Below are positions 30,701-32,692 of a stretch of 64,000 nt of DNA, in pieces. The notes under the pieces are model-generated. The model did not search any database, was not told the DNA's origin, and saw only the letters and a program-made list of their open reading frames with translations. How positions within the stretch are numbered: position 1 is the first letter of the stretch; each line of letters starts with the position of its first letter. The position numbers and the translations under genes were made by a program. This DNA is from Sinomonas sp. R1AF57 (lineage in GTDB: Bacteria; Actinomycetota; Actinomycetes; Actinomycetales; Micrococcaceae). The stretch lies in assembly GCF_002224485.1 (NCBI RefSeq), contig NZ_CP022463.1, positions 340,376 through 404,375 on the forward strand, in the 5' to 3' direction.

Positions 30701-32692
30701 GCCGAGGGCGAAGATGTCGCCCACGCGGGACTCGTAGACCATCTCCTCGTCGAGCTCGCCCACGCGCCGGCCCCCGCGGGCCGCCTCCCGGGCCGAGCCC
30801 TCTTCCTCGCTGCCCACGATGTAGACGCCGAACAGCCCGCGGTCCGGGATGGTGCCGCCCGAGGTGACGGCCAGCCGCTGGGCGCCCGGGCGCCCCTCGA
30901 TCGTGCCCTCGGTGCGGTCCCACACGATCCTCGGGCGCAGCTCCGCGAACTCGTCCGAGGGGTACTTGCCGGACAGGAGGTCGAGGGTCGCGTCGAAGGC
31001 CGAGCGCGGGAGCGTCGCGAACGGAGCGGAGCGGCGCACGACGTCGAACCACTCCTCCACGTCGATCGGCCCCAGCGCCGTGGCTGCGACGGTCTGCTGG
31101 GCAAGGATGTCGAGCGGGTTCGCGGGGATCCGCAGGGCCTCGATCTGGCCGGAGAGCATGCGCTCGACCGTGATGGCGGTGTGGACGAGGTCTGCCCGGT
31201 GCTTGGGGAAGAGGACGCCCTGGGAGACCTCGCCGACCTGGTGGCCGGCCCGGCCCACGCGCTGGAGGCCGGAGGCGACCGACGGCGGGGACTCGACCTG
31301 GACCACGAGGTCCACGAGGCCCATGTCGATGCCGAGCTCGAGGCTGCTGGTCGCCACGACGCACCGCAGCCGGCCGGACTTGAGGTCGTCCTCGATCTGG
31401 GCACGCTGCTCCTTCGAGACGGAGCCGTGGTGGGCGCGGGCGAGCACCGGGTCGGCGCCGGCGGTCTGGCCCGCCTGCGCCATCATCTCGGCGGGGGTCC
31501 GGGCCTGCACCCGGTGGTTGGGCGCAGTCGAAACCCCCGGCTGGCGAGCGGAGCTGCCACCGGGTTTCGACTCCGCTTCGCTTCGCTCAACCACCGGAAG
31601 CGGCTCGTCCCAGACGCTGGGCTGGAGCCGCTCGGCGTAGATCTCGTTGAGCCGTCCCGTGAGCCGCTCGGCCAGACGGCGCGAGTTCGAGAAGACGATC
31701 GTGGAGCGGTTGGCGAGGATGAGGTCGACGATCTTCTCCTCGACATGCGGCCAGATCGAGGCCTGCGGCTGCAGGCCCGACGCGGGCCCGCTGTCATGCG
31801 CCGCTGCGGCGCCCGCGAGGTCGCTCATGTCCTCGACCGGCACCGTCACGGTCAGCTCCCACGTCTTCTTCGCCGGGGGTGCGACGACCTCGCACGGTGC
31901 CTGGCCCGCGAGGAACTGCGCCACGAGGTCGCGGGGCTCGACCGTCGCGGAGAGGCCGATCCTCTGTGCGGGCCTGGGGAGGATCGCGTCCAGCCGCTCG
32001 AGCGAGACGGCGAGGTGGGCCCCCCGTTTCGTCCCGGCGACGGCGTGCACCTCGTCCACGATCACGGTCTCGACCTCGGCGAGGGTCTCGCGCGCCTGCG
32101 AGGTCAGCATGAGGTAGAGGGACTCGGGGGTCGTGATGAGGATGTCCGGGGGACTGGACAGGAGCGCCCGGCGGTCCGACGCCGAGGTGTCCCCGCTGCG
32201 CACGCCCACGCTCACCTCGGGCACGGGCGAGCCGAGCCGCGCGGCCGTCTGCGAGATGCCGATGAGCGGGGCGCGCAGGTTCCGCTCGACGTCGACCCCG
32301 AGCGCCTTCAGGGGCGAGATGTACAGGACCTTGGTCTTGTTCTTGGGCGCACGACGCCGCCGCGCACCGCCCGCGCTCGTCTCGCTCCTGCTCGCCCCAG
32401 CCGCCGCCTCGAGCCCCGGGAGGGCGTCCGCGGCAGGTGCCCGGGCGCCGTCGTGCGTCATGAGGCGGTCGAGGGACCACAGGAAGGCGGCGAGGGTCTT
32501 GCCGGAGCCCGTGGGCGCGACGACGAGGGCGTGCCGGCCGGAGGAGATCGCCTCCCACGCGCCAGTCTGCGCGGAGGTGGGCTCCCGGAAGGCGCCGAGG
32601 AACCACGCACGGGTGGCCGCGCCGAAGCGTTCCATCACCGCGGCGGTGCCGAGGGCCGAGCCTGCATCTGCCACGGCACCATCATCGCGCAC
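27704..32692 (-). CDS. lhr: Lhr-type ATP-dependent helicase with in-frame repeat insertions
   Basis: The protein has 1662 residues, above the roughly 1500 usual for full-length actinobacterial Lhr. Motifs are Walker A APTGSGKTLAAFLW near residue 57, DEVHAV near 210, SSLELGIDMGLVDLVVQ, and QRVGRAGHQVG; the long C-terminal half carries the Lhr winged-helix and beta-barrel region. It is a superfamily 2 3'-5' helicase induced by DNA damage in mycobacteria. Two stretches, near residues 365-393 and 1034-1045, are encoded by a palindromic repeat and both read VVERSEAESKP; they look like tolerated insertions. Start is GTG 32692 (GGAGGC too close) or GTG 32674. It overlaps the Nei2-like gene. Confidence 0.93.
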   Translation of the reverse strand: MRDDGAVADAGSALGTAAVMERFGAATRAWFLGAFREPTSAQTGAWEAISSGRHALVVAPTGSGKTLAAFLWSLDRLMTHDGARAPAADALPGLEAAAGASRSETSAGGARRRRAPKNKTKVLYISPLKALGVDVERNLRAPLIGISQTAARLGSPVPEVSVGVRSGDTSASDRRALLSSPPDILITTPESLYLMLTSQARETLAEVETVIVDEVHAVAGTKRGAHLAVSLERLDAILPRPAQRIGLSATVEPRDLVAQFLAGQAPCEVVAPPAKKTWELTVTVPVEDMSDLAGAAAAHDSGPASGLQPQASIWPHVEEKIVDLILANRSTIVFSNSRRLAERLTGRLNEIYAERLQPSVWDEPLPVVERSEAESKPGGSSARQPGVSTAPNHRVQARTPAEMMAQAGQTAGADPVLARAHHGSVSKEQRAQIEDDLKSGRLRCVVATSSLELGIDMGLVDLVVQVESPPSVASGLQRVGRAGHQVGEVSQGVLFPKHRADLVHTAITVERMLSGQIEALRIPANPLDILAQQTVAATALGPIDVEEWFDVVRRSAPFATLPRSAFDATLDLLSGKYPSDEFAELRPRIVWDRTEGTIEGRPGAQRLAVTSGGTIPDRGLFGVYIVGSEEEGSAREAARGGRRVGELDEEMVYESRVGDIFALGATSWKIEDITHDRVLVSPAFGQPGKLPFWKGDGLGRPVELGRALGAFQREVAGADRERATARIEAAGLDAFAANNLLQYLDEQKQATTVVPSDRTLVVERFQDELGDWRVVLHSPFGMPVHAPWALAVGRRLSERYGLDGSAMAADDGIVLRVPMMEDEPPGAELFVFEPEELDGIVTEEVGGSALFAARFRECAARALLLPRQNPAKRQPLWQQRQRASQLLDVAKKYPQFPIILEAVRECLQDVYDLPALRDVAAAVQRRELRLVETTTQQPSPFARSLLFGYVAQFLYEGDSPLAERRAAALSLDATLLNELLGRAELSELLDEKVIEQTERELQRLTEERKLKGLEGAADLLRLLGPLSVEEAAARTVVERSEAESKPHLEVVRSDLQELVAARRALLVNVGGAERYAAIEDASRLRDALGVPLPIGVPLAFIEPVADPLADLVGRYARTHGPFTAGEAATRLGLGVAVVHTTLKRLTADGRVIEGSFRPAAAPAQGQPLSGAATEALAAREEWCDAEVLRKIRRRSLAALRADVEPVDQAAFARFLAAWQHIGDPQDGRRRGSLRKHDGVLTVVDQLAGVPIPASAWEPLVLRSRVADYAPALLDELMAAGEVVWTGAGAIPGNDGWISLHVADSAALTLAPDPDFTPEDAHERVLEFLASGGGYFFRQVAEAAGGMDSVLTDQAALQVLWDLVWAGRVTGDTFAPVRALLDSGHTAHRQPSRTPRARSYGGYGGAVRGGRLPRLGRLGAVGRQGPDAPSGATPPTAVGRWSAVPATDLDTTVKLHALAELLMDRYGVLTRGSVMAESVPGGFGLLYKVLSRLEESGTCRRGYFVDRLGAAQFAVPATVDRLRQFSRDDTLAAGPEAAPARAALALAATDPANPYGAALAWPEVPGAATGHRPGRKAGALVVTVDGALALYVERGGKTLLAFTDDDAVLAPAAAALVGVVRSGAVDRLAMEKVNGHDLLDTPLARALTAAGAYSTPRGVRIRA
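29556..29589. repeat. 34-bp interspersed repeat inside lhr, solitary copy
   Basis: The sequence starts GGTTTCGACTCCGCTTCGCT and continues to 29589. It is identical over all 34 bp to 31563-31596. On the coding strand it reads in frame as VVERSEAESKP. Confidence 0.85.
31512..31596. repeat. 85-bp MITE-like palindromic insertion inside lhr
   Basis: The right arm (31563-31596) is the 34-bp repeat. The left arm (31512-31535, CGGTGGTTGGGCGCAGTCGA onwards) is its inverted, shortened copy, with 27 bp between. The element adds about 28 residues without breaking the frame (VVERSEAESKPGGSSARQPG plus a short tail). Terminal inverted repeats and small size recall a non-autonomous mobile element. Confidence 0.75.

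Follow-up and report, generated by a model that had tools for sequence, protein, structure and literature searches.

The two matching arms within lhr of Sinomonas sp. R1AF57 are, at a probability that we put at about 0.6, units of a non-autonomous REP-like and RPE-like repeat that would have been moved by an enzyme and filtered by selection into the linkers and tails of proteins. The data show directly that the units are dispersed, polar and present in arrays, that their pentamer number has changed at one orthologous site, that they are shared between species and that their reading frame is restricted. Both arms lie in the window (the whole 64,000-nucleotide stretch of DNA that was analysed), within a single gene. 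This gene, lhr (27704..32692, minus strand), encodes a large ATP-dependent helicase of 1662 aa and was identified from its open reading frame, from matches of its product to the solved Lhr chains 7lhl and 5v9x, and from its relatives, which are present in all 15 genus genomes. Among named records, its best relatives belong to Sinomonas.

Site 1 (31512..31596) is a BIME-like inverted pair of units, recognized by its arms, its fold and its reading, LPVVERSEAESKPGGSSARQPGVSTAPNHR. The long unit (31563..31596, minus strand) consists of the tag CGGT followed by GGTTGAG-(CGAAG)(CGAAG)(CGGAG)-TCGAAACC, in the frame VVERSEAESKP; a 27-bp spacer (31536..31562) separates it from a short unit with one mismatch (31512..31535, plus strand), composed of the tag CGGT and GGTTGGGCGCAGTCGAAACC, which is antisense to lhr and is read VSTAPNH. 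Site 2 (29555..29589, minus strand) is a solitary long unit, also read VVERSEAESKP, with a diverged copy at the same junction in genomes G003 and G004. The preliminary description had reported a second identical arm in lhr and the same VVERSEAESKP reading for both, and on both points it was correct, except that the identical run (29555-29589 and 31562-31596) spans 35 bp rather than 34. A pattern of 33 bases hits 29556-29588 and 31563-31595 and has no match in 100 shuffles.

The possibility that the arm is found nowhere else proved false, as a search of the complete 3.94-Mb window genome revealed a dispersed repeat with approximately 60 copies that conform to CG(G/C)T-GGTTGAG-(CGNAG)1 or 3-TCGAAACC. 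Similarity searching located 49 places at E<=0.001, a strict pattern gave 23 exact matches (0 for the reversed control), and the general pattern GGTTGAGN{3,30}CGAAACC gave 66 (again 0 for the reversed control). Chance was considered as a source of these matches and was ruled out by the shuffles together with the reversed-pattern controls. Among 61 copies in the window and 14 other stretches of the genome, the core measures 20 bp (n=22), 30 bp (n=38) or 25 bp (n=1), corresponding to one, three and two CGNAG pentamers, respectively, and a few of the 38 long copies look degenerate. The flank on the GGTTGAG side of these 61 copies is conserved (C 98%, G 97%, G 75% and T 72% at positions -4 to -1), and on the opposite, 3' flank the best base reaches only 57%. 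Arthrobacter-type copies (GGTTGAGCCTGTCGAAACC and variants, n=67) carry a tag on the same side (C 93%, G 94%, T 82%); the tag is weaker outside the Micrococcaceae, where G was found in 24 and T in 19 of 26 copies from six class genomes of other families. Because the flank is conserved on one side, the unit is polar, as a tagged REP is, and not a symmetric palindrome. A lone Sinomonas unit folds no better than its shuffles. With DNA parameters, three of four units taken from other families gave z of -1.8 to -2.1 and the fourth +0.3.

In the window genome, inverted pairs are less frequent than single units or tandem arrays: 32 of 39 close neighbor pairs share an orientation, head to tail, and only 7 are inverted, with spacers that vary from 6 to 27 bp. 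The arrays have a constant spacing, for example 36 or 42 bp. One of them, six short units between genes at an exact spacing of 36 bp (L144:3946-4148; genome 783945-784147), is probably a young tandem array.

Beyond this genome, the strict pattern is present in 6 of the 15 genus genomes. With the general pattern, at least one match was found in 126 of 197 Micrococcaceae genomes and at least ten in 11 of the 197, and most of the counts of 0-3 are comparable to those of the reversed control. Across the class, 17 of 394 genomes, belonging to four families (f1, f3, f11 and f34), contain at least ten copies, with a maximum of 330, and units that have the same ends and other centers are distributed patchily. 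Plasmid and phage collections contained no match to one 35-nt query of the Sinomonas type. At the 3' end of one gene, a unit is common to G003, G010 and G011, with differing numbers of pentamers, and is absent from G009; by frame reading, the stop codon of the gene is a TGA supplied by the unit in the first three genomes and a TAG in the unit-free G009. No clean empty site emerged from the three places at which G010 and G011 seemed to differ: one proved to be shared after all, one lies in a region that matches G011 only via the unit, and one lies beside a larger rearrangement. Because no clean empty site was obtained, transposition itself is something that we infer.

The Lhr proteins of related strains do not all contain the two segments, an outcome that the preliminary description had left open. 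At site 2, a unit occupies the same junction in 2 of 15 relatives (G003 and G004), with about three differences each, and the corresponding linkers of the remaining relatives differ in sequence and length. Nine of the 80 named lhr loci carry, at site 2, in-frame copies of a sister type, VEPVET (counted with at most one substitution). The nine, none of them from Sinomonas, are L073, L076, L086, L091, L097, L099, L104, L118, which has seven copies, and L122. The inverted pair of site 1 was found in the window genome only among the relatives compared; in G009, G010 and G011, a single short unit lies close to the end of the site-1 linker and is oriented oppositely to the window short unit. The claim that the element adds about 28 residues is not established by the anchored site-1 segment, which has 59 residues in the window and 34-66 in 14 relatives (a misaligned row, L047, was dropped, and G005 is not among the site-1 relatives). 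On these comparisons, both lhr sites are variable linkers. Two records surfaced here as oddities. In G005 (one contig; L046, L047, L170 and L176), the lhr, M18 and TreY genes each look broken, perhaps through sequencing indels, and an entry that bears the name Vibrio cholerae strain 35D (L128), whose Lhr is 67% identical to Sinomonas Lhr and falls among Arthrobacter proteins, is probably a mislabelled or contaminated assembly.

The two lhr copies had been taken for independent arrivals of an active element. Their center, CGAAG-CGAAG-CGGAG, is found in only 3 of the 38 long copies, and the site-2 counterparts in G003 and G004 have other centers; the sharing of this rare center within lhr points to copying or homogenization inside the window genome rather than to two independent arrivals. 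Activity is likewise not demonstrated, as G003 and G004 have counterparts of the solitary copy at this junction and the rare center fits copying or homogenization. The Lhr tree places the window species as sister to a set of seven that includes G003 and G004; G002, which adjoins these two, has no site-2 unit. The copy common to the window, G003 and G004 may therefore be ancient, gained twice, lost elsewhere or transferred. A recombination tract was considered as the source of the shared site, and nucleotide identity just upstream of it is raised for G003 (93%), which is not decisive.

Units of this kind might also spread passively, with no transposase, through replication slippage, unequal crossing-over, ectopic gene conversion and transfer between strains. 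Such processes would readily produce tandem arrays of constant 36- or 42-bp spacing, a variable pentamer number at an orthologous site and a rare center shared by two copies in one gene, and they agree with the surroundings of the sampled unit clusters, where the neighbors are ordinary genes and no flanking transposase or other mobile gene was found. They could hardly, however, seed single copies in unrelated genes (those for M18, FAD monooxygenase and agmatinase, for example), nor preserve the tag and the two ends from family to family when the center is different, and we consider passive spread an unlikely explanation for the family.

Mobilization of classical REPs by RAYT, a Y1 tyrosine transposase with kinship to IS200/IS605, has in its favor that a one-sided tetranucleotide tag, short size, inverted pairs, clusters, intragenic copies and the donation of stop codons are all traits of REPs, as described in PMC3733652. 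REPs of the GTAG and CGTC super-families resemble the present units in being short, in having at one end a 4-base tag that does not belong to the pairing part, in forming pairs and clusters of uneven abundance, and in having intragenic copies and a unit end that can supply a stop codon. The same source places REPs inside genes, among them repair genes, and perhaps in flexible linkers; the in-gene, stop-donor and possible-linker behavior of REPs is, to that extent, already known. The present units differ in that the tag of Sinomonas and Arthrobacter units is CG(G/C)T and not GTAG, in that the ends GGTTGAG and CGAAACC are kept while the center changes, and in that Sinomonas units have no stable hairpin beyond chance, although some units of other families fold moderately. 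The main text of PMC3733652 contains no occurrence of Actinobacteria, Arthrobacter, Nocardioides, Streptomyces or Mycobacteri-. More directly, a search for the Y1 transposase domain, PF01797, found none in 20 genomes, including all 11 element-rich Micrococcaceae (the class genomes with the highest counts lie outside this set); a control search gave matches in 5 of 14 known genomes. PMC6006769 also assigns only subclass 1.1 of these enzymes to the Actinobacteridae. A classical REP moved by RAYT is thus improbable. Separately, a gene for a small GIY-YIG domain protein lies between units of palindromic form in G464 (L269:7211-7564), and is possibly a candidate mobilizer.

The preliminary description had called the 85-bp stretch of site 1 MITE-like. 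As a MITE, the stretch would be a single transposable element bounded by terminal inverted repeats and moved by a DDE transposase. The inverted ends stood up, with arms of 17 and 15 nt. The pair also folds strongly (z of -5.7 and -5.5 against shuffles for the two strands), and exceeds chance only because two units face each other. The unity of the element did not: its halves are unequal, a long unit and a short one, and such units are separate entities that occur mostly singly or head to tail. No direct repeat of at least 8 nt flanks the pair within 31480-31630, a length below which shorter ones could be missed, and the internal sequence is not constant, as the variable spacers of inverted pairs illustrate. 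We regard a MITE as very unlikely. The pair is better compared with BIMEs and REPINs, which, like site 1, have two inverted units about a short spacer. According to PMC2817692 and PMC3116915, the association of RAYT genes with REPs is obligate, and the 20 genomes tested here have none. Rickettsia palindromic elements (RPEs), as characterized within PMC3733652, are likewise inserted in frame into genes for likely functional proteins; their sequence is unrelated, and the present copies differ from what is described there in being nearly all in two frames and in also lying, in many cases, in arrays and between genes. We class the repeat family as REP-like and RPE-like, and not as a REP of the RAYT kind or a MITE.

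Filtering by selection, the second part of the reading that we prefer, was approached through the frames of intragenic copies. These were counted in 20 Pfam-identified genes of four genomes, the window genome and three of Arthrobacter type (the window Lhr was identified by structure matches), drawn from open reading frames with coding signal or Pfam support. Among the 57 copies in these genes, 46 are read as V(V)ERS..- or VEPVET-like peptides, 10 are antisense and read VST.., and 1 is antisense in another frame, such that two frames account for 56 of 57. Five of the six frames are open; even use would therefore place 2/5 of the copies in the two favored frames. The binomial probability of the observed use is 2e-21 when copies are counted and 3e-7 when genes are (19 of 20 genes use these frames exclusively), figures that are generous, even by gene, since copies within a gene are non-independent and some genes recur between genomes. 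The sole off-frame copy, read GFRRAQPP, lies in the middle of the MazG protein of G132 (L212). Eight of eight further copies in the VanY genes of two species are in the same frame. Left out of the count were the ADH (L153) and GcvT (L142) reading frames, in which the unit precedes the likely start, family-less reading frames of L142 and L150, and an acyl-CoA dehydrogenase reading frame of L150 whose unit lies outside it. When 18 left-out reading frames on the Arthrobacter side were scanned, 17 had no Pfam family and one, MaoC-type (L214), had a copy in the VST frame in its N-terminal tail, outside the 57. Hydropathy and disorder scales did not cleanly separate used from unused frames; the used frames are free of aromatics, except for the VST frame of the long unit, which contains F. 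The suggestion that the reading frame favors survival inside genes thus gains support from these counts.

The positions of the copies are in keeping with such a filter. Insertion is in frame, with no frame break, in the 20 identified genes of four genomes and in two VanY genes, and the host proteins retain open frames and domains that are intact by Pfam. Copies were found in the Lhr linkers, in DnaX and in the tails of agmatinase, UGDH, Sua5, bPH2 and luciferase-like proteins. In pyruvate dehydrogenase E2 they lie between the lipoyl, E3-binding and catalytic domains, in interdomain linkers in four genes, and the units of M18 and TreY coincide with gaps relative to solved homologs, in loops of which relatives have empty or decayed versions. 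A few intragenic copies fall within Pfam domain envelopes (FAD monooxygenase, M18), and many copies are located where no coding signal was seen. To judge from sequence, intragenic copies seem to sit mostly in linkers, loops and tails, doing no harm. Unit arrays also surround a PRK-VanY gene pair in the window species and in G005 (L147 and L220), and the VanY linkers contain 2 and 6 in-frame units. That the peptide itself is the selected motif, a solubilizing linker for instance, with the DNA repeat as a by-product, would explain the identical peptide in unrelated proteins and the use of the same linkers in several genera, but is highly improbable given that 10 of 57 copies are antisense and yield VST-type peptides, that many copies lack coding signal, and that the units retain their DNA tag and ends.

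We therefore return to a mobile repeat filtered by selection, for which we propose the following mechanism. An Actinomycetes repeat with a one-sided 4-base tag, the ends GGTTGAG and CGAAACC and a lineage-dependent center (CGNAG pentamers in Sinomonas) would at some stage have been copied to other places in the genome by an enzyme acting in trans, one other than a PF01797 Y1/RAYT protein in the genomes tested. After copying, units would expand locally into tandem arrays and vary in pentamer number. Selection would remove the copies that damage proteins after insertion, such that survivors would be intergenic or would reside in linkers, loops and tails in two frames, those that encode short peptides mostly free of aromatics (VVERSEAESKP or VEPVET, and VST-type peptides on the other strand). 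The two variable linkers of lhr would be refuges, site 2 for a solitary unit at a junction common to two other species and site 1 for a REPIN/BIME-like inverted pair.

A literature search encountered no description of the repeat family and no match to the element sequences tried, subscription papers being mostly beyond its reach. As far as it shows, the family of sequences and its distribution across Actinomycetes are new, as are the absence of a Y1 enzyme from the tested genomes and the counted restriction of frame. We suggest tentatively, at somewhat less than even odds, that these units constitute a third tagged REP-like super-family (nGST-GGTTGAG ... CGAAACC, with lineage-specific centers), confined to Actinomycetes so far, that is mobilized by an enzyme unrelated to Y1 and that repeatedly adds same-frame segments to core proteins, among them Lhr and pyruvate dehydrogenase E2, in their linkers and tails. 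If this is true, tagged REP-like repeats would reach a class whose tested genomes are without the usual mobilizing enzyme, and the nature of the mobilizer would become a searchable question. The family would also offer a case in which the creation of protein sequence by repeats can be counted, in the linkers of Lhr and E2, in different genera and almost always in the same frames.
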